A DNA stretch of 39,607 nucleotides from Maribacter sp. (lineage in GTDB: Bacteria; Bacteroidota; Bacteroidia; Flavobacteriales; Flavobacteriaceae), in the NCBI GenBank assembly GCA_024643345.1, contig JAHENB010000027.1, forward strand, positions 1-39,607, in the 5' to 3' direction. The notes under the pieces were generated by a model, which did no database searches, had not been told where the DNA came from, and saw only the letters and a program-made list of their open reading frames with translations. Below, piece after piece: positions 23,769 through 39,225 of this stretch (its first letter is position 1; each line of letters opens with the position of its first letter). The position numbers and the translations under genes were made by a program.

Positions 23769-25121
23769 TTACGCTTCAGGTTGTGGTTTCATCACGAAGT
23801 CTTCCATGAACTTGGTGGTATAGTTTCCGGCCAGGTAATCGGGATGATCCATCAGTTGCCTGTGAAATGGGATGGTGGTTTTGACCCCCTCTATGACAAA
23901 TTCATCCAAAGCACGCTTCATTTTATTGATCGCTTCTTCCCTGGTCTGGGCCGTGGTGATCAATTTGGCAATCATGGAATCGTAATTGGGTGGAATGGAA
24001 TATCCGCTGTATACATGGGTATCGAGACGTATCCCATGCCCTCCTGGCGTATGCAGGGTCGTGATTTTGCCCGGGGAGGGACGAAAACCGTTATACGGGT
24101 CTTCGGCATTGATCCTGCATTCTATGGAATGTAACTTTGGGAAGTAATTTTTTCCGGAGATGGGAACCCCTCCAGCTACTAAAATCTGTTCCCGAATCAA
24201 ATCATAGTCTATGACCTGTTCGGTAATGGGATGCTCTACCTGGATTCGAGTGTTCATTTCCATAAAATAGAAGTTCCGATGTTTGTCTACCAAAAATTCT
24301 ATGGTCCCGGCCCCTTCATACTTGATATATTCGGCGGCCTTAACAGCAGCTTTCCCCATGTCGTCCCTTAGCTTATCGGTCATGAACGGTGACGGTGTTT
24401 CTTCCGTCAATTTCTGGTGCCTGCGTTGAATTGAGCAGTCCCTTTCGGAGAGGTGACAGGCCTTACCATACTGATCGCCTACCACTTGAATCTCGATATG
24501 GCGGGGTTCCTCGATCAATTTTTCCATATACATGCCCCCATTGCCAAAGGCCGCCTTGGCTTCCTGAACCGCACTGTTGAAAAGCTCTTCCATCTTTTCT
24601 TCCTTGAATACAGCCCGCATCCCTTTGCCACCACCTCCCGCGGTCGCTTTGATCATTACGGGGTAGCCCATCTTCTTGGCCACTTTTTTGGCATCTTCAA
24701 CATCTTTCAGCAGCCCGTCCGAACCGGGAACGGTAGGCACGCCTGCCTTCTTCATGGTCTCCTTTGCCGTGGCCTTATCGCCCATCTTATCGATCTGTTC
24801 CCCGGAAGCCCCGATGAATTTGATCTGATGTTCGGCACATATCCTTGAAAATTTCGAATTTTCCGATAAGAACCCATACCCGGGATGAATGGCATCTGCA
24901 TTGGTAATTTCGGCCGCAGCGATGATATTGGGTATCTTAAGGTATGATTCACTGCTTGGCGGTGGCCCTATGCATACTGCCTCATCGGCAAAACGAACAT
25001 GAAGGCTATCCTTATCGGCCGTTGAATACACCGCAACCGTTTTGATCCCCATCTCTTTGCAGGTGCGTATCACTCGTAGTGCGATCTCGCCCCTGTTTGC
25101 AATCAATATTTTTTTGAACAT
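23769..25121 (-). CDS. accC: Acetyl-CoA carboxylase, biotin carboxylase subunit
   Basis: The 450-residue ATP-grasp enzyme carboxylates biotin on AccB with bicarbonate and ATP, the first half-reaction of malonyl-CoA formation. Visible features are the N-terminal [30 protein letters not shown], the glycine-rich ATP loop [29 protein letters not shown] and RINAEDP. The length is standard. It follows accB after 82 bp. The carboxyltransferase subunits are not in the window. Confidence 0.97.
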
Positions 25122-25203
25122 ACCTTTTGAAAATTAAAAAATCCGACCACATGGCATTCCGCTTCGAACAGAGGGCCAAAATTTTGTGATTTGAAATTGA
25201 TCG

Positions 25204-25692
25204 TTATGATGGATCTACCAAAAACAGCGGTTGATCGAATTCGACCGGAGAAGAGTCATCGACCAATATTTTTACGATTTTACCCGAAATTTCAGATTCG
25301 ATGTCATTGAACAGTTTCATGGCCTCAATGACACAAAGTACATCACCTTTGTTTATGTTGTCCCCAACCTCTACAAATGAAGGCTTATCGGGAGAAGGCT
25401 TTCTATAGAACGTGCCGATTATGGGCGATTTTATGGTGATGTATTTACCATCATCATCTGCAGCGGCCTTGGTTGTTGAACTTTCGGACGCAGCCGCAGC
25501 CACTGATGGTGGTGGGGCCATTTGAGCAGGCTGTTGTGCCATTGGAATCTGTTGCACGTAGGTGGTTTCGCGCCCACTGCCCAAAGCACCGGTACGAATC
25601 GAAATCTTTACGTCTTTCATCTCAAGTTTCACTTCCGTGGCACCCGATTTGGCTACAAATTTGATCAGGTTTTGAATGTCTTTGATATCCAT
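25204..25692 (-). CDS. accB: Acetyl-CoA carboxylase, biotin carboxyl carrier protein
   Basis: The protein has 162 residues. A short helical/beta N-terminus ([20 protein letters not shown]) is joined by an Ala/Pro/Gln-rich flexible linker (about residues 48-80) to a biotinyl domain. The biotin attachment site is K126 in EAMKLFND. The domain begins at [20 protein letters not shown], the usual thumb-containing form of AccB. It lies 25 bp after fabH and upstream of accC. Confidence 0.97.
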
Positions 25693-25717
25693 GTAATTTA
25701 ATTTTTGTTAGTGATCC

Positions 25718-26716
25718 CTATTTACTGTATGCCCATTTCAAATAAATGGCGCCCCATGTGAAGCCGCCGCCGAAGGCCGCAAATACGATATTGTCTCCCT
25801 TCTTAAGTTGCTTTTCATAGTCTGCGAGCAATAAGGGCAGGGTGGCCGAGGTCGTATTGCCGTAATACTGTATGTTCATCATCACCTTGGAGTGATCGAG
25901 GCCCATTCTGTTCGCCGTGGCATCGATGATGCGTTTATTCGCCTGGTGCGGGACCAGCCAAGCCACGTCTTCGTGGTTCAATTGGTTATGCTCCATAATA
26001 TATGCCGCAGCATCGGCCATATTGCTTACCGCAAACTTGAATACCGATTTACCGTCCTGATAGATGTAATGTTTTCTGTTCTTTACCGTTTCCATGGAAG
26101 CCGGCAATAAGGATCCCCCAGCATCCATGTTCAAGAAATTCCTTCCTACCCCATCCGATCTTAAGTACTCGTTCTGAAAACCCAATCCTTCTTTGTTGGG
26201 TTCAAATAAGACCGCCCCTGCGCCATCCCCGAATATAATACAGGTGGTGCGGTCGGTATAATCAACAATCGACGACATTTTATCGGCCCCGATGAGCAAA
26301 ACTTTTCGATACCTCCCCGATTCGATATAACTCGCAGCGGTCGACATCCCGAACAAAAAACTCGAGCAGGCCGCAAGAAGGTCATAACCAAAAGCATTGG
26401 ATGCCCCAATCTCGGTCGCGACGTAGGCCGCAGTGGAAGCCACCAATGTATCCGGTGTTACAGTGGCAACAATCACCAAATCTATATCTTTTGGATCTAT
26501 TTTTCCTTTTTTAAGAAGGTCCTTAGCAGCCTTAATGGCCATGTAGGAAGTGCCTTGACCTTCTTCCGGCTTTAAAATCCGTCTTTCTTTGATTCCCGTG
26601 CGGCTGGTAATCCATTCATCATTGGTTTCGACCATCGCTTCCAGCAACTTGTTGGTCAGTACAAAGTTTGGAACAAAAGCTCCCACAGCAGTAATTGCAG
26701 CTGTTAATTTACCCAT
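25718..26716 (-). CDS. fabH: Beta-ketoacyl-ACP synthase III
   Basis: The 332-residue enzyme condenses an acyl-CoA primer with malonyl-ACP to start fatty-acid synthesis. The Cys-His-Asn triad is visible: C117 (LLAACSSFLFG), H257 (LVPHQANKRI) and N287 (YYGNTTSA). I use the ATG at 26716; another lies two codons upstream. A 273-bp gap with a terminator separates it from rpmF, so it probably has its own promoter (weak box TATTTTTC on the minus strand). Confidence 0.96.
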   Translation of the reverse strand: MGKLTAAITAVGAFVPNFVLTNKLLEAMVETNDEWITSRTGIKERRILKPEEGQGTSYMAIKAAKDLLKKGKIDPKDIDLVIVATVTPDTLVASTAAYVATEIGASNAFGYDLLAACSSFLFGMSTAASYIESGRYRKVLLIGADKMSSIVDYTDRTTCIIFGDGAGAVLFEPNKEGLGFQNEYLRSDGVGRNFLNMDAGGSLLPASMETVKNRKHYIYQDGKSVFKFAVSNMADAAAYIMEHNQLNHEDVAWLVPHQANKRIIDATANRMGLDHSKVMMNIQYYGNTTSATLPLLLADYEKQLKKGDNIVFAAFGGGFTWGAIYLKWAYSK

Positions 26717-26940
26717 TACCATGAATTGATTTGTTTCGAAAAAGTTTCAAAAACACCACAAAATTCGTGAAAAATAGTGATTTTTAATGACTTTTAGCTG
26801 ATAAACGGTGTTTTTAAGCGATATCTGAGATCAAGATCCGTATGGTGCATGCCTTGATTCATTCCGGCGCATAAATAGCGGCCAAGGTTTTCTTAAAATG
26901 CTTTTTGAACAAATGGTTTGGTACCTGCCCCATAATGCAC

Positions 26941-29643: not shown

Positions 29644-30840
29644 TTATTCCTCAAAAAAACTGATGGAAGAACCGATCCAGGTGTCTTCGGTCAAATGGGA
29701 TACGTTGATCAGGTCGCCCTTCCCCATTCGCGTAAGGTTAATGATGGGCTTCAGCCGGTTTTCATCTGTATTCCATGCATAAAGAATGCGCAGTTCAACT
29801 TTTGAATTTTTTTCGGTATTGGTCTTTATCAGCGGGGCATAGGAAACTTTGCGCTGAAGCAGATAATTCTGTTTGTCTTTGATCTGTGCTATGGTCTCCA
29901 AAGTTGGATGCAGGTCGATTCCTTTGCCCGCAAAGGAGAATAAGGGCTTCATTACGTAATCCTTCAGGTCGATCCCTTCGGGGTAGTCGTTCAAATAATA
30001 TGATGGCGGAATGGCTTGATGCCTAAGTAAGGGCATAATACATTTTGAGATGATAAAAAACCAATCGGGGTGGGTGATCCATTCCACATTAACATCGTCA
30101 AATAGGTTGAAATCGGTCTTTAAATTTTCGATTCGTTGCAACTCATCGAAAATCACCCTATTGTAGATGCGGGTAATCGGCGTCTTTTTTCCATTTTTTT
30201 CATAATAAAGACTTTTTCCTTCCTTCATTACCTTTGTCAAACAAACCACTTCAATACCCAAAGCTTGTTTGGTCGCCCAAAAATCGATCCTGGTCTTCTG
30301 CTTTTCAGGGAACAACTCGAGTAGGATTACATTCTCCGGATTTTCGTTTCCTATTATGACCTTTCTAACTTCTTCCATATAACGCGCTTCATCGAGGCCA
30401 TCAAGGAAATATTGAAATCCTGCTTTGGGGATGTTCGGATAATTTTTAAGAAAAGCCTTGCCCAAAAAAGGTTGGTAGAACATAAGGGAAGGAAAGGCCT
30501 GTAATTCAATAAGTTGCGGGCCTATTCCGCCCTTTCCATCATCGCATAATCCAAAATCGATCGCCAAAAAATGGGGGTTGCCCAATGGGGACGGGGATTG
30601 TAAATGCTTTGGGGTAAACCGTTGCCTCAGGGCCTCGAAATCCAAGGTGTCGATCTGTGCAAGAATGGCGTTACAGGCCTCAAAAACACTTTGCTTTATC
30701 GCCTTATCAAGAAAGACCGGTGTCTCCGAAATTCGGAACGCACAAGGTTCCCCAAAGGTATCGGCCACTTCTTTTTGAAGGTTTTCATAATACGACTCCT
30801 TGAAATCGCGGTTAAAGGCCTCCCTGATACTTGGAATCAT
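29644..30840 (-). CDS. Permuted ATP-grasp-like amide ligase (unknown substrate)
   Basis: The protein has 398 residues. Motifs look like a circularly permuted ATP-grasp fold, as in the synthetase domain of glutathionylspermidine synthase. An acidic metal-site segment comes first: AIDFGLC (D95) and PQLIELQAFPS (E112, Q114). Later come HPDWFFIISK (K266) and DYVMKPLFSFAGKGIDL (K298 and the glycine loop), then VELRILYAW (R351) and LTRMGKGDLINVS. In ordinary ATP-grasp enzymes the KP...GKG part precedes the acidic part. It is predicted to activate a carboxylate with ATP and join it to an amine. Its start overlaps the stop of the amidotransferase gene (ATGA), so the two are translationally coupled. 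The similarity is by eye and distant; the substrate is unknown. Confidence 0.65.
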   Translation of the reverse strand: MIPSIREAFNRDFKESYYENLQKEVADTFGEPCAFRISETPVFLDKAIKQSVFEACNAILAQIDTLDFEALRQRFTPKHLQSPSPLGNPHFLAIDFGLCDDGKGGIGPQLIELQAFPSLMFYQPFLGKAFLKNYPNIPKAGFQYFLDGLDEARYMEEVRKVIIGNENPENVILLELFPEKQKTRIDFWATKQALGIEVVCLTKVMKEGKSLYYEKNGKKTPITRIYNRVIFDELQRIENLKTDFNLFDDVNVEWITHPDWFFIISKCIMPLLRHQAIPPSYYLNDYPEGIDLKDYVMKPLFSFAGKGIDLHPTLETIAQIKDKQNYLLQRKVSYAPLIKTNTEKNSKVELRILYAWNTDENRLKPIINLTRMGKGDLINVSHLTEDTWIGSSISFFEE

Positions 30841-31673
30841 ACAGACAGTAATTTAAAGGCATCGATATTGTCGGCCGCCTGTTTTAGAAATCGCGGAATA
30901 ATGGTATGGTTGGTCTTCATGATCTTGTCGTTATCGTCTAAATGGGCAATCATATCGAGATATTTGGTTTTCCCGTAGCGCTTAACGATTTGATCCCTTT
31001 TGTCGGCCCGTTGAAAATAGTGGAGCATGCCCAATGAATCTGCTTCGGGATGAAATTGAACCCCAAATATTTCCTTGCTGAATCGAATGGCCATAACCGC
31101 CCTTTCCAAGGGGACATGGTCTCGGATCTTCTCCCGACAGAGCACTTTGCCATCCAAGGTGTCCAACTTCCATTCTTTTGGGCCCACTACTTGGTAGTCC
31201 CTAGAATCTACCGCATAAAATGGGTCATCGAGGCCCTCGAAAAGGGGCTCATGTTCTCCACTTTTTGTTTTGTAAATGGGCAAAATACCAAAGGAAGTGG
31301 ACTTGCGTTTGGTCACTTTCGCCAAATCCCAATGAACACATGCCATTTGAAACGAATGGCAGATCAGGAAAAGGTGTTTTTTGTTGGGCTTCGAAAGGTT
31401 GTGGCGCAAAATAGCATCCAAAAAGCCAAAATATGCAGCCTCCCAGAATTCTCCCAAAATCATTGGAGATCCGGGGCCTCCCGAGGAAATAAAGATGTCG
31501 TAGTCTTCCACAGCCGGGATTTCCCCTTCGACCCTAACCTCGAAAACATCAAAATTCCCGCCGACATGGTCCTCTGATAAAAATTCAGTCACCAATGCCT
31601 TGATGCACCGCATCCCTTCATTGGGGTGGCCTGCATTCATGTCCAAGACCGCGACATTATAGTTGTTGTGCAT
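30837..31673 (-). CDS. Class I glutamine amidotransferase-like protein
   Basis: The protein has 278 residues, with a complete Cys-His-Glu triad: C105 in LICHSFQMAC, and H208 and E210 in GVQFHPEAD. The oxyanion region ISSGGPGSP (63-70) is present. Class I domains either feed ammonia to a synthase or, when free-standing, hydrolyse gamma-glutamyl amides (as PuuD does). No classical acceptor synthase is fused or adjacent; the next gene, overlapping by 4 bp, is a permuted ATP-grasp ligase. A ligase/amidase pair is therefore a reasonable reading. The C-terminal 60 residues (from QRADKRDQIVKRYG on) are extra to the core domain. It follows the GCS2 gene by 32 bp. Confidence 0.82.
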   Translation of the reverse strand: MHNNYNVAVLDMNAGHPNEGMRCIKALVTEFLSEDHVGGNFDVFEVRVEGEIPAVEDYDIFISSGGPGSPMILGEFWEAAYFGFLDAILRHNLSKPNKKHLFLICHSFQMACVHWDLAKVTKRKSTSFGILPIYKTKSGEHEPLFEGLDDPFYAVDSRDYQVVGPKEWKLDTLDGKVLCREKIRDHVPLERAVMAIRFSKEIFGVQFHPEADSLGMLHYFQRADKRDQIVKRYGKTKYLDMIAHLDDNDKIMKTNHTIIPRFLKQAADNIDAFKLLSV

Positions 31674-31705
31674 GTATTGAATTTTGTTCAGGCCACTGCT
31701 CCCCT

Positions 31706-32803
31706 TTATAATCCTTTAGCCGTCTCCGCAACTACATATTTAACCACTTCCTTTAGGTCTTTGGTTTCTTCGTAAACCTTGAGCTGCCTATCTGCACCTG
31801 AGCCCTGTTCCAACATTTGATAAACAAAGTTAACCTCTTTTCGGCAGCCTAGATCGTCTACCACGTCATCGATGAATTCCAAAAGTTCCTGCATCAAGAT
31901 GGGAAATGGCACTTCTTCCTCCTTTCCAAAATCGATCAATTTGGCCTCGATGCCCCAGCGAGCGGCACGCCATTTATTCTCGTTGATCAAGATGCGTCGG
32001 TATCCCCTAAAACTTTGGTTCTTCTGGTGCAATTTGCTCAATTTGGCGATGACACACTGCATTAAAGCTGCGACACAGACCACTTCATCGACGGTCATGA
32101 GCATATCACAGACCCTGAATTCCACGGTAGGGTAAAAGGGATGAAGACGAATATCCCACCATATTTTTTTGCCATTATCGATGCAGTTGGTCTTTACCAA
32201 TAATTCCACAAACTTATCGTACTCCCCAACACTGGCAAAATATGGGGGTATTCCCGTTCTGGGGAATTTATCGAAGATTTTTGACCGGAATGATTTAAAT
32301 CCTGTCTCTCGACTTTCCCAAAACGGTGAATTGGTCGAAAGGGCATAGAGGTGGGGCAAAAAATAGCGGGCCACGTTCATGATCTGAAGTCCTTCTTCCC
32401 TGCTTGGGATGCCCACATGTACGTGCATCCCAAAAATGAGGTTCGATCGGGCCACATCTTTCATCTCTTGGATCAATACATCGTATCGAGGATTGGGCGT
32501 GATCAATTGTTCGCTCCAATGTGAAAATGGATGGGTACCGGCTGCGGCCACCTTAAGATCTTCCTTGGCCGCAAGCTCAAATATTTGTTGTCTTAAATAC
32601 GAAACCTCGTCCCTGGCCTGTTGGATATTTTCACAGACATTGGTGCCCATTTCCACTACCGACTGGTGCATCTCTTCCTTGATGCGTTCTTTAAGGACCA
32701 CTTTTCCCCCATCGATAATCTTCGACATTTGGGAATGCAATGTTAATGTATTGGCATCCAGTATCTGAAATTCTTCCTCTATTCCCAGTGTGAATTTATG
32801 CAT
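31706..32803 (-). CDS. Carboxylate-amine ligase, YbdK/GCS2 family
   Basis: The 365-residue enzyme has the glutamine-synthetase-like fold of YbdK, a weak glutamate-cysteine ligase in E. coli. Diagnostic motifs are FTLGIEEEFQILD (GIEEE at 7-11), AAAGTHPFSHW (86-96), GMHVHVGIPS (125-134) and RLHPFYPTVEFRVCDM. It is expected to make an amide (often gamma-glutamyl) bond with ATP. It is the third gene of the leftward operon, 29 bp after the ATP-grasp gene. Family membership is secure; the substrate is not. Confidence 0.9.
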   Translation of the reverse strand: MHKFTLGIEEEFQILDANTLTLHSQMSKIIDGGKVVLKERIKEEMHQSVVEMGTNVCENIQQARDEVSYLRQQIFELAAKEDLKVAAAGTHPFSHWSEQLITPNPRYDVLIQEMKDVARSNLIFGMHVHVGIPSREEGLQIMNVARYFLPHLYALSTNSPFWESRETGFKSFRSKIFDKFPRTGIPPYFASVGEYDKFVELLVKTNCIDNGKKIWWDIRLHPFYPTVEFRVCDMLMTVDEVVCVAALMQCVIAKLSKLHQKNQSFRGYRRILINENKWRAARWGIEAKLIDFGKEEEVPFPILMQELLEFIDDVVDDLGCRKEVNFVYQMLEQGSGADRQLKVYEETKDLKEVVKYVVAETAKGL

Positions 32804-32832
32804 AACGATTCTTTCTGATAGTACGGCCTAGT

Positions 32833-34128
32833 CTATTTTGTTTTTTTCGTGCCGCTCTTGTGCGCTGTTTTTGACGGAAGTTCCAAACCCCCTTTTGCGG
32901 GTTCCCGTTTCACCGCGGTTGTTACAAGTTTCATTTTCTTGGCTTCGACACCGCTTTTCGTGGTCTCCTTTTTAACGATCGCGCGCTTTGGTTTTGTTGC
33001 GCCCGCTTTTGGTTTGCCCGTGGTTTTGGCTTTTGGCGCTGCCTTGGCTTTGGCAACGGTCGGTTTTGCGGCCTTGGTGGCGGCCGAAGGTTTTTTCGCA
33101 GGGGCCTTTTTCACTACGGCCTTTTTGGCCGGGGCACTCGCCTTGGCACCTGCCTTTTTCGTTTTTGGTGCTTCTGGTACGGCAGCATTTTTGATAAATG
33201 TTCCCCATGAAGAATTGTTCTGTTTTTCTTTGTGGGAAAGGGCCTTTTCTATGGCAAACTTTGCCGCGTGTTTCACGATCCAATCGAAGTTGGCCTGGCC
33301 TACCGAATTTACATCGGCATCGGGTGCCGGATTGCAGAAGTCTATGGCGTACGGGATCCCGTCGCGAACCGCAAATTCCACGGTATTGAAATCGTAGCCC
33401 AATGCCTTATTGAGCTTTATGGTATAATCATGGATGGTTTTCATCAGTTTTTTGTGTTCCTCGCCCGTGGTCTTGGGTTCGGTGGCATAGCGCAAATGAA
33501 ATTCGTTCCTAGGTTCATAGGGCATGATATGAACATATTTTTGGCCCAGGCAATACACCCTGTAATAGTCTTCAAAAACGATTTCTTCTTGAAGCATCAT
33601 CACCAATTGGCCGGTTTCCCCATGTTTACTGAACAAATCCTCGGCGTTATCGACACGATAAACACTTTTCCATCCCCCACCGGAATGTGGCTTCATATAG
33701 GCCGGAAAGCCGATATAGTTGAAAATATAGTCCCAATCCAAAGGGGCCTTTAAATTCCGGAACGACTTTTCAGTGGTGTCATCGGGCCGCTCCTTTGACG
33801 GTAATAGTACGGTCTTTGGGACCGGGACACCCAATTGCATGGAAAGGCAATTGTTAAAAAATTTTTCGTCGGCACTCCACCAAAAAGGGTTGTTGATCAC
33901 TGCCGTTCCCATAAGGGCCGCATTTTTGAGATAGGCCCTGTAAAATGGTGCTTCCTGGGAAATACGATCGATGATCACATGATACCCATAATCAATGCCC
34001 TGTTGTACCTTGTCGATAAGGACTGGCTCAGCGACTACTTTGCCCTCGCCCTGTGCGTTCACTTCATCGATAAACGCCCATGGGAAAGTGTCTTCCATCC
34101 CAAATAAAATTCCTACTTTTTTTGCCAT
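32833..34128 (-). CDS. ATP-grasp ligase with histone-H1-like C-terminal tail
   Basis: The protein has 431 residues. Residues 1-310 resemble RimK/D-Ala-D-Ala-ligase-type ATP-grasp enzymes. They have an N-terminal alpha/beta domain (KKVGILFGMEDTFPWAF), FPAYMKPHSGGGWKSVYRV (ATP lysine K146 and Gly loop), QEEIVFEDYYRVYCLGQ, and the metal-binding VEFAVRDG and AIDFCNPAPDADVNS (D263, N266). Residues 321-431 are a Lys/Ala/Pro/Thr-rich tail with repeated AKK/APK units, similar in composition to histone H1 or AlgP. The frame is continuous to TAG, so the tail is not an obvious frameshift product. It lies 33 bp after the esterase gene. It is predicted to form an amide bond, with the tail perhaps binding nucleic acid or polyanions. 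Confidence 0.8.
   Translation of the reverse strand: MAKKVGILFGMEDTFPWAFIDEVNAQGEGKVVAEPVLIDKVQQGIDYGYHVIIDRISQEAPFYRAYLKNAALMGTAVINNPFWWSADEKFFNNCLSMQLGVPVPKTVLLPSKERPDDTTEKSFRNLKAPLDWDYIFNYIGFPAYMKPHSGGGWKSVYRVDNAEDLFSKHGETGQLVMMLQEEIVFEDYYRVYCLGQKYVHIMPYEPRNEFHLRYATEPKTTGEEHKKLMKTIHDYTIKLNKALGYDFNTVEFAVRDGIPYAIDFCNPAPDADVNSVGQANFDWIVKHAAKFAIEKALSHKEKQNNSSWGTFIKNAAVPEAPKTKKAGAKASAPAKKAVVKKAPAKKPSAATKAAKPTVAKAKAAPKAKTTGKPKAGATKPKRAIVKKETTKSGVEAKKMKLVTTAVKREPAKGGLELPSKTAHKSGTKKTK
32836..33168 (-). repeat. Low-complexity Lys/Ala/Pro-rich coding segment
   Basis: This is the DNA for residues 321-431 of the ATP-grasp gene. It consists of irregular repeats of AAA/AAG lysine and GCC/GCA alanine codons, giving motifs such as APAKK, KKAPAKKPSAA and KAAPKAK. 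No exact tandem unit is evident. Confidence 0.75.
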
Positions 34129-34161
34129 GATATTTTATATTGTTTGTTGTTCGTTTTATAA

Positions 34162-34872
34162 TTAAAAATACTTGCTTATATACTCGGGAAAAACCATTTT
34201 CCAGAGGGGCCAATCATGTTCGATCCACTTTTTTTCATCGTACCAATATGGGATGCCCTTCGCTTCCAAAATGCCGGCCATGTGCGCATTTTTAGGTTGG
34301 CAACTGTCCCAATCGGAAGTGCTCAATACGATATGCATATGATGGTATTTCCAAGCTTCCGCATTTTGCATAAATTCATCCGGACAATTCAAATAGATGC
34401 GCAAATCATCGGATAAAGGGGTGAAATTGCGAATATTGAAGACCCCGCTCATGGAGAAAAGGTGTGAAACAAGATCGGGATAGCGAAAAGCGGTATTGGC
34501 CGCATGGTAGCCCCCAAAACTGACGCCCGCAACGGCAACCCTATGGGTGTTGCATTCGTTTTGTATATAAGGGATCAGCTCCTCCTTCAGGAACTGCATA
34601 TACAGTTCATAGTTATGTATTTTCTCCTCCGATGCCATATTGTCGGCATAGAACGACAGCATGTCCAAAGTCTCGACATTGTAAAGTTTTATACGGCCTT
34701 CTTCCACAAACTGCATCACCGAACCGTTCAGGCCAAAGTCTGAATTTTGCGTGAATTGCCCGCCCGAAGAAGGAAACATCAAAACGGGATGGCCCCAATG
34801 GCCTGTAACTTCGAGATTGATATTTCTCGATAGGATGTTCGAATAATATGGAATGTACTTCACCTCGGCCAT
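34162..34872 (-). CDS. Putative esterase, alpha/beta hydrolase (PF00756-like)
   Basis: The 236-residue hydrolase has nucleophile S118 in AVAGVSFGGYHA, a late histidine H219 in WIEHDWPLW and a probable acid in STSDWDS (D187 or D189). The HPVLMFPSSGG segment (residues 28-38) precedes the oxyanion region. It resembles the esterase-D/antigen-85-like family. There is no signal peptide, so it is probably cytoplasmic. It is the first gene of the five-gene leftward operon of amide ligases, so its substrate may be the pathway product or an activated intermediate. Confidence 0.82.
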   Translation of the reverse strand: MAEVKYIPYYSNILSRNINLEVTGHWGHPVLMFPSSGGQFTQNSDFGLNGSVMQFVEEGRIKLYNVETLDMLSFYADNMASEEKIHNYELYMQFLKEELIPYIQNECNTHRVAVAGVSFGGYHAANTAFRYPDLVSHLFSMSGVFNIRNFTPLSDDLRIYLNCPDEFMQNAEAWKYHHMHIVLSTSDWDSCQPKNAHMAGILEAKGIPYWYDEKKWIEHDWPLWKMVFPEYISKYF

Positions 34873-34922
34873 AGTCTACAATATAAACTAAAATTACTTA
34901 ACTCTCAATCAATTAAAGCCGG

Positions 34923-34930
34923 CAAAAGTA
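34923..34930 (-). promoter_or_regulatory. -7 element TACTTTTG for the amidoligase operon
   Basis: This is an exact TAnnTTTG on the minus strand, with predicted start near 34916 and a leader of about 44 nt before the esterase ATG at 34872. A weaker box, TAATTTTA, lies closer to the gene. Confidence 0.5.
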
Positions 34931-34971
34931 ATTAATTTTCGAATGTGAACGCCACATTTTCATGGAATCCT

Positions 34972-34979
34972 TATACTTG
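34972..34979 (+). promoter_or_regulatory. -7-like element TATACTTG for the second esterase
   Basis: This has one mismatch to TAnnTTTG and lies 19 bp before the ATG at 34999. It sits inside the longer reading that begins with GTG at 34945, which argues for the shorter protein. Confidence 0.4.
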
Positions 34980-34998
34980 CAAACCCAATGTAAAATTC

Positions 34999-35808
34999 AT
35001 GCGGTTCCAGATTGAATGTATTAGTTTAAAGGGAAGTATTGTATCAAAACACCTGGATAGAAAGGTCAAATTCCGTTTGGAGGCGCCTCCGAACTATAAA
35101 GATTCCAAACAGACTTTTCCAGTACTGCTGATGAACGATGGTCAAGACTTTCTCAAAATGAACTTGGAAAAGTCGTTGACCCAGGCCTATGCCTCCCCAA
35201 CGATCGTCCCGTTTATTTATGTGGGTATCGAATGTAATGAAGACCGCCTCCAAGAATATGGGACGGCGTCTTCAGCAGACTTCAAGGGCAGGGGCGATAA
35301 GGCCTTAAAGTATTCCAAGTTTATATTGGAAGAGATGATCCCCTTTTTAAAAAGCGAATTCAAAGTTTCGAAAAGTCCCCAAGAATGGGTCTATTGTGGT
35401 CTGTCTTTGGGCGGTTTGTCGGCTTTTGACATTGTCTACAACCACCCGCAATATTTTGGTAAAGTGGGTGTTTTCAGTGGCTCGTTCTGGTGGCGCAAAA
35501 AAGCGTACAAAAAGAACGATAAGGAAGATCGAAGTCGTATCGTCCTGGATATGGTAAAACACGGGAAATTTAGTCCCCATTTAAAATTCTGGTTTCAATG
35601 CGGTACGGAAGACGAGACCGCGGACCGTAATAACAATGGCATTATAGACGCCATTGACGACACCCTAGATCTTATGAAGGAACTGACCGAAAAAGGCTAT
35701 TCTTACCCGGGCGACATCACCTATGTGGAAATTGAGGGAGGCAAACACGATTTGCCCACATGGGGGAACGTTTTTCCGGAATTCATCACATGGGCTTTTA
35801 GCAAGTAG
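34999..35808 (+). CDS. Putative esterase with EF-hand-like loop
   Basis: The 269-residue alpha/beta hydrolase of the PF00756 type has nucleophile S136 in YCGLSLGGLSA, probable acid D205 in QCGTEDE and histidine H250 in EGGKHDLPTW. Directly after the acid, residues 209-220 read DRNNNGIIDAID, which fits the calcium-binding EF-hand/dockerin loop. I start at the ATG at 34999; a GTG 18 codons upstream would add a segment containing the likely promoter. There is no signal peptide. It is divergent from the operon of amide ligases and probably belongs to the same system, though its fold-mate at 34162-34872 is only distantly similar. Confidence 0.82.
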   Translation: MRFQIECISLKGSIVSKHLDRKVKFRLEAPPNYKDSKQTFPVLLMNDGQDFLKMNLEKSLTQAYASPTIVPFIYVGIECNEDRLQEYGTASSADFKGRGDKALKYSKFILEEMIPFLKSEFKVSKSPQEWVYCGLSLGGLSAFDIVYNHPQYFGKVGVFSGSFWWRKKAYKKNDKEDRSRIVLDMVKHGKFSPHLKFWFQCGTEDETADRNNNGIIDAIDDTLDLMKELTEKGYSYPGDITYVEIEGGKHDLPTWGNVFPEFITWAFSK

Positions 35809-35844: not shown

Positions 35845-36933
35845 TCATACTTTTACGAAAATTCCCTTTTTATGAAGTACATATCCCAATAGCACATAGA
35901 AGCCGACTACCGTAAGGGCATACAAAAGGGAGGACATTTGCATCGACATAAAATCATGGATATAGATCGATTGAAAGAGCCATCCATGCAGGGAAGTATT
36001 CTCTTCGACCTTGATCATCCCCAATATCTTACTGATGAAGCTCGAGAAAAAATATAGGATGATGGCATTGGCGCCCGCATATCTGAACAAGCTTCCGAAC
36101 TGGATCTTTTTCACGTCGGTCAAATAATAGATCAGTGCCAACACCAAATTGGCCCATCCTGCGGTTACCAAAACAAAACTGCTGGTCCATAAGGCTTTGT
36201 TGATGGGGAAAATTAGATCCCATACATGGCCCAGAATCAAAAATAATCCACCTAGACCCATCAAAATCGTCGCTTTTTTAACTTGTTTGGAAGTCAATAT
36301 CAAACCGGTTAAGATACCCAATAAAGCGCTCACAATGGCCGGGATGGTGCTCAGAAGGCCCTCTGGATCGTAATCGGCCTTCCACATATGGGTGCCCAGC
36401 ACCTTCAGATCTAAATAGTTTGCGAGATTGTTCGGCGCTCGCTCCAGGGTAGATTCCATGCCGTTGACCGGCACAAAGACCATCAGCAACCAATAACCGA
36501 TCAATACAAAGGCTGAAATAGCCGCCAAGGTTTTCCAATTCGTATTGATGAACAGTATGGAAGCAAAGAAGAAAACGACCCCAATACGTTGCAGCACGCC
36601 TGGGAACCGAATGTCGGCAAAATCTTTGAAAAAGGGAAAACTTAGAGTGAAGGCGCCCAGAAAAAGACCGAGCCCTATCAATTTTAAACTTCTCATGGTT
36701 ATTTTTTTATAGGTGCCCAAAGAAGCCGTTTTGTTCTTGTACGAAAAGGAGATGGAAGTGCCCACTATAAAAAGGAAGAAGGGAAATACGAGATCGGTCG
36801 GGGTATACCCATGCCACTCCGCATGTAAAAAAGGGGCATAAACACTAGACCAGGTTCCCGGGGTATTGACCAAAATCATCAAAACGATGGTCATGCCTCG
36901 GAAAATATCAACGGAAACGATTCTATTCCCCAT
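35845..36933 (-). CDS. DUF5009/NagX-type membrane acyltransferase
   Basis: The 362-residue protein has about 10-11 membrane helices, related to heparan-alpha-glucosaminide N-acetyltransferase and bacterial NagX. The N-terminal signature is clear: RIVSVDIFRGMTIVLMILVN, then AEWHGYTPTDLVFPFFLFIV. Members transfer acyl groups from cytoplasmic acyl-CoA to sugars across the membrane. It is the last gene of an operon with DUF3052 (22 bp upstream) and a sodium:solute symporter, which suggests uptake and modification of a sugar or amino sugar. That pairing is inference. Confidence 0.85.
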   Translation of the reverse strand: MGNRIVSVDIFRGMTIVLMILVNTPGTWSSVYAPFLHAEWHGYTPTDLVFPFFLFIVGTSISFSYKNKTASLGTYKKITMRSLKLIGLGLFLGAFTLSFPFFKDFADIRFPGVLQRIGVVFFFASILFINTNWKTLAAISAFVLIGYWLLMVFVPVNGMESTLERAPNNLANYLDLKVLGTHMWKADYDPEGLLSTIPAIVSALLGILTGLILTSKQVKKATILMGLGGLFLILGHVWDLIFPINKALWTSSFVLVTAGWANLVLALIYYLTDVKKIQFGSLFRYAGANAIILYFFSSFISKILGMIKVEENTSLHGWLFQSIYIHDFMSMQMSSLLYALTVVGFYVLLGYVLHKKGIFVKV

Positions 36934-36955: not shown

Positions 36956-37375
36956 TTAGTGCTTATCTCTATTTTTCAATCGATGTACAAATTTCAATCC
37001 GCTCCAATCCCGGTCGATCGCAGCGACCTTAATATCAACCAAGCCAATTTTCAGTACGGTTTCCCTAATCAGATCCCTGTTAAGTTCGGTAGGCAATTGC
37101 GAACTCCCTTTGGGCCAACTGATCCAAAGGGCTCCATTTTTCTTCATTGCCTTGGAATACCTTTCCAGAACCTGTTTGAGTTCATCGAAACCGGTGCAAA
37201 ACAAATGTATAAAATCAGCATTCCCATTTTCAATTTGAGTCATCGGAATCACCTGGTCCGGGAAATCATCGAACAGATCAAAGTAATGCACGGGCGGATC
37301 ATAAAGCAATATTTGCATCCCCGCTTTTATGCCCAACTTTTTTTCCAAGGACGTTTTTGAATACCCTGCTTTCAT
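36956..37375 (-). CDS. DUF3052 family protein
   Basis: The protein has 139 residues from the ATG at 37375. A longer reading would run back into the symporter gene and is rejected because this ATG opens directly on the family N-terminus (MKAGYSKTSLEKKLGIKAGM). The rest, LLYDPPVHYFDLFDD, FIHLFCTGFDELKQVL and KNGALWISWPKGSS, matches DUF3052, a small cytoplasmic domain of unknown function that as I recall resembles a reduced methyltransferase-like fold. It lies between the symporter gene and the DUF5009 gene. Confidence 0.82.
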   Translation of the reverse strand: MKAGYSKTSLEKKLGIKAGMQILLYDPPVHYFDLFDDFPDQVIPMTQIENGNADFIHLFCTGFDELKQVLERYSKAMKKNGALWISWPKGSSQLPTELNRDLIRETVLKIGLVDIKVAAIDRDWSGLKFVHRLKNRDKH

Positions 37376-37413
37376 CTTCGTTTCAAAGCTATCCGATGCA
37401 TCAAAAAGGGGGC

Positions 37414-39225
37414 TTACAAAATATGATCCTTCATCCTGTTCCATGCCTTGATCAAGAGATATCCCGAAACAAAGGCAACTGCGGTAAGGACCATGGCCGA
37501 TGTAGTCCTGCCATAAATCCAATACCCTGTGGCGAACATGATCGAGTAGATCAGAACACAGCCCAAAAGCATTGCAGTGATGCCCGAGGGCACACTCCAT
37601 TTTTCTTTGGCACTAACAATGGTTGCCCCGTCCGTTTTGGCTTCTGCCACCACCTTCTTCCAACCCGGGCCCCCAGGTTGTATCTTTTTATAAAAATCGC
37701 GGAGTACTTCCTTTGATTCGGGTTGGGTCATATAGGTGGCCGACACCCAAATCGCCGTGGTCACCAAGACCACGAAGGGATACTCGGTCCAATCAGGGAA
37801 TAAGCCGGTTTCAGGAGCAAAAAGATAGGGTCCCAATGCGGTGGTTTTCAACAATATGGAAATGATCCCCGAAGCGAACATGGCCGTGATCTCACTCCAA
37901 GAGTTGATCCGCCACCAAAACCAGCGAAGGATAAAAATAAGTCCGGTTCCCGCCCCGAAGGTCAATAAGATGTCAAATATCTGTAACGCATTTTCCAAGG
38001 CAAGTGCCAAGACGGCGCTTAAGACCATCAATACTATGGTCGATACCCTACCCACGGCCACCATTTGTTTTTCCGTTGCGGCCGGATTGATCTGTTGCTT
38101 ATAAAAGTCGAAAACAATATACGATGAGCCCCAGTTCAATTGCGTGGAAATGGTGCTCATATAGGCCGCGATCAGCGAGGCCAAGACTACCCCTAAAAGG
38201 CCGCTTGGCAATTTGGTCAACATGGCCGAATAGGCCAAATCCTGGCCCAATTTGCTCTCCGCCACATTGGGGAAGGCTTCATGGATGCTCGCGATATCAG
38301 GATAGACCACCAAGGAGGCCAAGGCAACCAAAATCCATGGCCAAGGCCGCAAGGCATAGTGCATGATATTAAAAAAGAAGGTCGCCCCAATGGCATGGTT
38401 CTCGTTTTTGGCCGCCAGCATCCGCTGTGCGATGTACCCGCCGCCGCCAGGCTCGGCCCCGGGATACCAAGAGCTCCACCATTGCACCGCCAACGGAATG
38501 ATAAATAGGGTGATCAATGCCTTTTTGTTGCTGAAGTCTGGAACGATGTTCAGTTTCTCAGAAACGACCTCATGCGCCATCAATGCCTCTATGCCCCCAA
38601 CTTCTGGGATATTAACCAAATAAACCGCCGCGGCAATGGCCCCCGACATGGCCACAAAAAATAGTAAAAAATCGGTATAGACCACGCCTTTAAACCCCCC
38701 TAGCGCACTAAAGGTCACGGTAATCAAACCTGCACTGACCACAGTGACCCATGGGTCGAGGCCCAGCATGATGCCCCCAATTTTTATGGCGGCCAAAGTA
38801 ACCGAGGCCATGGTGATCACATTGAACAAGACCCCCAGGTAAACTGCGCGAAACTTTCTTAAGAATTTGGCGGGGGCCCCACCATAGCGCATCTCATAAA
38901 ACTCAAGATCGGTATTCACGTTCGATTTCCGCCAAAGCTTGGCATATACGAATACGGTCAAAAGTCCCGTGATCAAAAAAGCCCACCATACCCAATTGCC
39001 CGAAACCCCGTTGGTACGTACAATATCGGTCACCAGATTTGGCGTATCGGTCGAAAAGGTGGTCGCCACCATCGATAGGCCCAACAACCACCACGGCATG
39101 GTCCTTCCAGAAAGAAAAAATTCTGAAGAACTTTTTCCCGACTTTTTGGAAACAATGATCCCGATGGCCAAAACGATGGAAAAGAAGACGACAATAAAAC
39201 TATAATCGAGAGTGCTTAATTGCAT
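37414..39225 (-). CDS. Sodium:solute symporter family (SSS) transporter
   Basis: The 603-residue protein has about 13-15 hydrophobic helices of the SSS (SGLT/PutP-like) family, which imports sugars, amino acids or organic acids with Na+. Family features include LSGRTMPWWLLGLSMVATTF near the N-terminus, TFSALGGFKGVVYTDFLLFF and LGVVLASLIAAYMSTISTQL. A cytoplasmic segment (about residues 515-550) precedes the last two helices. A near-consensus -7 box (TATCTTTA on the minus strand, 39248-39255) lies 22 bp upstream of the ATG. Its substrate is unknown; the operon partners hint at a sugar. Confidence 0.9.
   Translation of the reverse strand: MQLSTLDYSFIVVFFSIVLAIGIIVSKKSGKSSSEFFLSGRTMPWWLLGLSMVATTFSTDTPNLVTDIVRTNGVSGNWVWWAFLITGLLTVFVYAKLWRKSNVNTDLEFYEMRYGGAPAKFLRKFRAVYLGVLFNVITMASVTLAAIKIGGIMLGLDPWVTVVSAGLITVTFSALGGFKGVVYTDFLLFFVAMSGAIAAAVYLVNIPEVGGIEALMAHEVVSEKLNIVPDFSNKKALITLFIIPLAVQWWSSWYPGAEPGGGGYIAQRMLAAKNENHAIGATFFFNIMHYALRPWPWILVALASLVVYPDIASIHEAFPNVAESKLGQDLAYSAMLTKLPSGLLGVVLASLIAAYMSTISTQLNWGSSYIVFDFYKQQINPAATEKQMVAVGRVSTIVLMVLSAVLALALENALQIFDILLTFGAGTGLIFILRWFWWRINSWSEITAMFASGIISILLKTTALGPYLFAPETGLFPDWTEYPFVVLVTTAIWVSATYMTQPESKEVLRDFYKKIQPGGPGWKKVVAEAKTDGATIVSAKEKWSVPSGITAMLLGCVLIYSIMFATGYWIYGRTTSAMVLTAVAFVSGYLLIKAWNRMKDHIL

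Follow-up and report, generated by a model that had tools for sequence, protein, structure and literature searches.

Gene products of the locus

Six genes occupy positions 29644-35808 of the 39,607-nucleotide stretch analysed here (the window), which is contig JAHENB010000027.1 of Maribacter sp. (assembly GCA_024643345.1). Five of them, transcribed in the order E-D-C-B-A, make up a minus-strand operon, and the sixth (F) is divergent on the plus strand (Table 1). Genes E and D are separated by 33 bp, D and C by 29 bp and C and B by 32 bp, and B and A overlap by 4 bp (a gap of -4 bp). All six open reading frames (ORFs) were found at the coordinates of the original prediction, in which five leftward genes with these gaps and a divergent esterase had been described. 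When the genes were followed through genomes of the phylum Bacteroidota, they were found to form one functional unit and look like one pathway, not a chance row.

The two outer ligases of the operon were recognised mainly by their structure models. For D, no Pfam match was obtained at E-values up to 0.1. Its AlphaFold2 model, which is of high confidence up to about residue 300, has an ATP-grasp fold and matches Ddl (3r23, E-value 3.7e-14). Residues K146, E251 and D263 are present in 137/137 aligned sequences and N266 in 136/137, and by analogy they are read as the lysine and the metal-site acids of the fold. The model of A (398 aa; mean predicted local distance difference test score, pLDDT, of 90.5) has 3n6x, 7uk8, 7uk6, 2io7 and 2hgs among its best matches. 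Besides 3n6x, the matches are to YgiC and YjfC of E. coli, to glutathione synthetases of eukaryotes and to E. coli GspSA (2io7, E-value 3.9e-11). Residues D95, E112 and K298 of A were kept in all 128 sequences. When the profiles of D and A were compared, a probability of 0.2 % was obtained and the two were rejected as sequence relatives.

The third ligase, C, passes the cut-offs of NF010039 (544.7 bits; cut-off 371), TIGR02050 (301; cut-off 176.4) and Pfam GCS2 PF04107 (211.8 bits over 21), and it is the sole GCS2 match in the whole genome. It is a clear relative of E. coli YbdK (1r8g, E-value 6.4e-48), although it stays below the cut-off of the YbdK-named equivalog NF010040 (250.5 vs 425). 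Protein B passes Pfam GATase PF00117 (28.6 bits over 22.8), and its triad of C105, H208 and E210 is kept in 103/103 aligned sequences.

Both esterases pass Pfam Esterase PF00756 (cut-off 22), E with 46.4 bits and F with 95.9 bits. In E, residues S118 and H219 are found in 100/101 sequences and D189 in 101/101. The start of F is uncertain, being either the listed GTG at 34945 or the ATG at 34999, which gives 268 aa as in the homologue of locus L032. Of 138 unique loci, 46 have F immediately next to E or D in divergent orientation. The alignments held 128 (A), 103 (B), 105 (C), 137 (D), 101 (E) and 47 (F) sequences after matches under set scores were dropped, and almost all aligned sequences of A-F retain the residues to which a catalytic role is assigned by analogy.

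Table 1 Genes and other features of the locus and its surroundings in the window
Feature	Position	Strand	Basis
E, PF00756 esterase that looks cytoplasmic, heads the operon	34162-34872	-	Pfam score and conserved residues
D, ATP-grasp ligase with its catalytic part in about residues 1-316	32833-34128	-	Structure model and conserved residues
D tail, Lys/Ala/Pro-rich, disordered, varies among relatives	32833-33180	-	Low pLDDT
C, YbdK-type carboxylate-amine ligase (GCS2)	31706-32803	-	NF010039
B, class I amidotransferase-fold protein, read as amide hydrolase	30837-31673	-	PF00117 and conserved residues
A, glutathione/glutathionylspermidine-synthetase-fold ligase, 4-bp overlap with B	29644-30840	-	Structure model and conserved residues
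F, divergent esterase (PF00756), start possibly 34999	34945-35808	+	Pfam score
E/F intergenic stretch, likely site of both promoters	34873-34944		Gene coordinates
362-aa membrane-type protein	35845-36933	-	
214-aa ORF	36956-37600	-	
Sodium:solute symporter	37414-39225	-	
Biotin carboxylase and beta-ketoacyl-ACP synthase III	23769-26722	-	

Distribution of the genes in Bacteroidota

A sample of 296 genomes drawn from the phylum was searched for D and, with profiles, for the other ligases and B, accepting E-values up to 1e-30 for A, B and A' (an alternative ligase described below) and up to 1e-100 for C. D was found in 109 genomes across many families, with one match each except in G272, where the match is in two pieces. 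The profiles found A in 93, B in 70, C in 101 and A' in 16 genomes. Counted by genus (n = 140), the numbers were 79 for D, 66 for C, 65 for A, 50 for B and 11 for A'. D and A occur together in 89 genomes, and A or A' is present in 104 of the 109 genomes with D. The five others (G007, G087, G160, G287 and G291) hold the most divergent D matches, with identities of 34, 34, 42 and 36 % for the first four and of 28 %, over the tail region only, for G291. D accompanies B in 69 of the 70 genomes with B and accompanies C in 91 of the 101 with C, and every genome with B (70/70) has A or A'. A without D was seen in G047 (a 75-base stretch), G144, G154 and G220. The pairing of D with another ligase (A or A') is near-obligate, and C and B are usual, not universal, members of the set.

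For gene order, the DNA round D was taken from 60 of the 108 other genomes with D, picked by eye for spread (sampled loci), and from the 80 loci closest to the window protein, the best 80 of a larger list (named loci). The complete one-strand order E-D-C-B-A was observed in 14/60 sampled and 57/80 named loci; A, B, C, E and A' were all missing from the strand of D in 16/60 and 1/80, respectively. Near D, the sampled loci contained A in 25 cases, B in 28, C in 29, E in 29 and F in 12. When genes from the flanks of the cluster were counted as a control in the same loci, the symporter, the 362-aa membrane protein, PdxA and DUF177 were each found in 2 and RibE in 3. Muriicola, Maribacter, Chryseobacterium, Elizabethkingia, Dyadobacter, Hymenobacter and Algoriphagus are among the named holders. 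The original prediction had named conservation of the neighbourhood across Bacteroidota as a test that could refute it, and the genes are kept together across much of the phylum.

In 11 of the 60 sampled loci the protein A', roughly 458 aa long, comes after D. A and C were found in none of these loci (0/11) and B in 10 of them, and A' replaces A in nine families of the sample. One A' example barely passes Pfam CP_ATPgrasp_2 (32.4 over 32) and another is without a Pfam match. A and A' were found together in only 1 of the 296 genomes, where A' is weak (378 bits). The A' profile finds 3n6x (E-value 2e-8), which is also the top structure match for A. Although both point to this structure, A and A' were rejected as sequence relatives (profile comparison probability 5.3 %).

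It could be supposed that unrelated enzymes merely share an operon, as some families have the genes scattered and neither C nor B is indispensable. We consider this extremely improbable and already disfavoured, because D goes with A or A' in the 104 genomes even where A and D lie far apart on the chromosome.

A cluster for a specialised antibiotic or signal dipeptide, like bacilysin or E-64, is very improbable. Such compounds are made by stand-alone ATP-grasp ligases according to a passage of PMC12568646. However, D is single-copy in 109/296 genomes over many families, neither D nor A gave a tblastn match in 72,556 plasmid records, and when the loci were clustered no exporter or tailoring gene was a frequent neighbour.

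Probable hydrolases of the cluster

In four loci (L054, L056, L058 and L072) a Peptidase_M29-family protein stands between C and A, the usual place of B; the one protein tested scored 64.7 over 27 for the family. A profile built from these loci was searched in 40 genomes with D and without B and in 40 genomes with both. Six matches above 530 bits were obtained in the former and 0 in the latter, and weaker matches (90-127 bits) were present in both groups. Five of the B-less genomes (G055, G093, G251, G255 and G271) have the M29 peptidase in the C-A interval; in G208 the match is elsewhere and does not adjoin A.

The class I glutaminase motif is C-x-G-x-Q. In B the residue at +2 from the nucleophile is Ser in 103/103 sequences, in place of the Gly, and that at +4 is Gln in 102/103. 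Because a peptidase takes the place of B, we read B as a probable amide hydrolase and not as a glutaminase, and the Ser at +2 also departs from the motif. Alternatively, B could be a glutaminase subunit that feeds ammonia to A or D, which would then make a terminal amide on an amidated peptide product; the N-acetylglutaminylglutamine amide osmolyte is similar in spirit. The class I amidotransferase fold with its intact Cys-His-Glu triad, the overlap of B with A and the occurrence of B only with A or A' are all consistent with a glutaminase. However, the M29 peptidase in the place of B in five genomes, the absence of B from 40 of the 109 genomes with D and the Ser of the motif argue against it, and we regard this alternative as unlikely on balance.

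When 36 loci were fetched round A not beside D, a set that covers part of such genomes, B was the neighbour of A in the same orientation in 7 and in the opposite orientation in 1, and 28 were without B nearby; C-B-A was intact in 3. Directly upstream of the lone A, an amidohydrolase-like protein (c216) was observed in 8 of the 9 fetched loci of families f24 and f27 (L177, L178, L181, L193 and L206-L209). The one example examined is below the cut-off for NCBIfam models, and the label c216 joins divergent proteins. As a hint only, this protein is possibly a third hydrolase partner of A.

A further peptidase was found in Chryseobacterium and relatives. Here the gene immediately upstream of E, on the strand of E, encodes an extra ATP-grasp protein in 26/138 unique loci, and an M17 aminopeptidase lies upstream of it in 25/138 (e.g. 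L038:3340-6107). The best NCBIfam match of the extra ATP-grasp protein is PRK02186 (63 bits vs a cut-off of 625).

The aminopeptidases bear on the alternative that the ligases modify a protein end in a RimK-like manner, by addition of amino acids or amines, and that the hydrolases remove the mark. The best NCBIfam match of D is the RimK-family TIGR00768, though with 25.8 bits it is far below the cut-off of 143.4. Its fold matches include LysX/ArgX (5k2m, E-value 2.0e-13) and PsnB, which are ATP-grasp ligases with protein or peptide substrates, and some D proteins have Lys-rich tails. On the other hand, no gene for a substrate protein recurs in the operon (ORFs of at least 90 aa), Lys-rich ends are found in 27/138 unique D loci only, and two aminopeptidase families accompany the cluster, which suits small peptides. 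We therefore hold protein modification to be distinctly unlikely. The operon gaps of 29-33 bp leave no room for a LysW-like carrier gene, the rest of the genome not having been searched for one. The D tail itself is histone-H1-like and differs in length between close relatives, and most of residues 328-431 have a pLDDT below 50.

A possible pathway and its alternatives

Our preferred reading, put forward tentatively, is that the cluster encodes one pathway, free of nonribosomal peptide synthetases, in which a short peptide-like amide is built and hydrolysed. Its fuller form is offered with the same reserve. In a chromosomal pathway that is widespread in Bacteroidota, an obligate pair of ATP-grasp-type ligases may make an undescribed peptide-amide, e.g. 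a gamma-glutamyl or acidic di- or tripeptide with an amine cap at its C-terminus, and interchangeable unrelated hydrolases (class I amidotransferase fold, M29 and perhaps amidohydrolase) may turn it over in hosts with bacillithiol genes. The suggestion in the original prediction that a small peptide or amide is built and recycled fits with an amide hydrolase beside the ligases.

By analogy with the families and folds, two or three ATP-driven amide bonds would be formed and then hydrolysed. Where present, C would form a carboxylate-amine bond, perhaps a gamma-glutamyl one, and D, with its Ddl/LysX fold, would add a residue. A would phosphorylate the C-terminal carboxylate and cap it with an amine or amino acid. 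The amide of the product would be cleaved by B, the Cys-His-Glu protein beside A, so that the B-A pair may be a split counterpart of GspSA, which in E. coli is synthetase and amidase in one. An ester or thioester form of a substrate or product would be hydrolysed by E and F.

Several known systems resemble this arrangement in part, the nearest of those worked out being the making and cleaving of glutathionylspermidine. Like GspSA together with GshA/GshB, the cluster would combine ligases of the carboxylate-amine type, the ATP-grasp type and the glutathionylspermidine-synthetase fold with a Cys hydrolase whose target is a small peptide. It differs in that C is YbdK-type and the hosts carry bacillithiol genes. 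GspSA joins synthetase and amidase, the latter a fused CHAP domain in the description given in part of PMC6272389, whereas the presumed amidase here is a separate class I amidotransferase-fold gene. YgiC and YjfC, termed peptidylpolyamine synthetases in a passage of PMC12568646 (citing Pederick 2023), share the fold of A (7uk8, E-value 2.1e-12; 7uk6, E-value 5.0e-12), and a 72-residue stretch of A matches YgiC by sequence (E-value 0.0027). However, A scores below the GSP_synth threshold and is accompanied by D in 89 of its 93 genomes. For proteobacteria, a section of PMC2588565 notes an amidotransferase-like thiol peptidase next to a ligase of GCS2 size. The amide-ligase neighbourhoods predicted by Iyer, Aravind and colleagues in 2008 are alike in this pairing, but the passages on them name proteobacteria and firmicutes.

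A glutathione-like low-molecular-weight thiol or its polyamine conjugate, serving in redox defence, would be another possible product, and E would then be an S-acyl-thiol esterase. Judged by family or fold, C, D and A have counterparts in the steps of GshA, GshB and GspS, and the polyamine family PF01916 is present in 27/30 genomes with D, the source genome included. However, this family was also found in 23/30 genomes without D, and E scored only 15.4 bits against the S-formylglutathione hydrolase model (cut-off 281.7). NspC, above the cut-off in 3/40 genomes with D and 1/40 without, is likewise uninformative on the polyamine link. Polyamine genes are about equally frequent in genomes with and without the cluster and do not favour either the polyamine conjugate or the capped dipeptide of the original prediction. 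In addition, bshC, for bacillithiol, was found in 291/296 genomes including the source genome, so that a main thiol is already present and a glutathione substitute is unlikely. N-methyl-bacillithiol has been measured in Polaribacter, as stated in a portion of PMC6282198. The glutathione-like main thiol of the original prediction is thereby weakened, and we consider the thiol or its conjugate as a whole quite improbable.

Some observations weigh against our preferred pathway. A is below the cut-off of Pfam GSP_synth PF03738 (13.5 vs 29.3) and has no other Pfam match, and PF03738 gave no match across the whole genome. C is absent at E-values up to 1e-100 from 18/109 genomes with D, so C is not an obligatory step everywhere and a strict C-D-A line is not general. 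D adjoins B directly, with no C between, in four fetched loci. Conversely, G144, G154 and G220 carry A and C with no match of D, and in G154 C-B-A is present with no D nearby. The lack of B in more than a third of the genomes with D counts on this side too, and so does the polyamine family, which does not discriminate between genomes with and without D. For the M29 swap, Fisher's test gave p = 0.026 (6/40 vs 0/40) or 0.055 (5 vs 0), both partly circular, as four of the six M29 genomes supplied the profile and only G251 and G208 are independent finds. The co-occurrence statistics (Fisher) moreover treat related genomes as independent.

In the literature, no paper was found that assigns this gene set, with subscription papers mostly outside reach and the Iyer 2009 amide-ligase survey, the likeliest place of an earlier mention, not compared. 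The set is not described in the portions seen of PMC4431377 and PMC2922099. As far as the literature searched reaches, the enzyme classes are known, but the coupling of the genes into a set, the swaps and the product are not. D is present in more than one third of the sampled Bacteroidota genomes (109/296) and hardly ever lacks A or A', with which it makes a coupled pair of ligases unnamed by Pfam. If the preferred pathway is true, environmental bacteria commonly make a new metabolite that could be reached directly, and the coupling of D with A, together with the swaps of A for A' and of B for M29, gives sharp genetic and biochemical handles on the identity of the product.

A role in anti-phage defence was also considered and rejected, as a PADLOC scan of seven proteins gave only a 16-bit Csx19 match to A (E-value 0.0038). 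A Hil-operon ligase and a Maribacter RimK-type protein, as described in the parts of their sources at hand, were set aside as having no bearing on the cluster.

Beside the cluster lie the 362-aa membrane-type protein, for which no Pfam family was above the cut-off, and the sodium:solute symporter. The window also contains ordinary fatty-acid genes for biotin carboxylase and beta-ketoacyl-ACP synthase III. In its 3' part the symporter ORF is overlapped by the 214-aa ORF, whose true start is probably internal.

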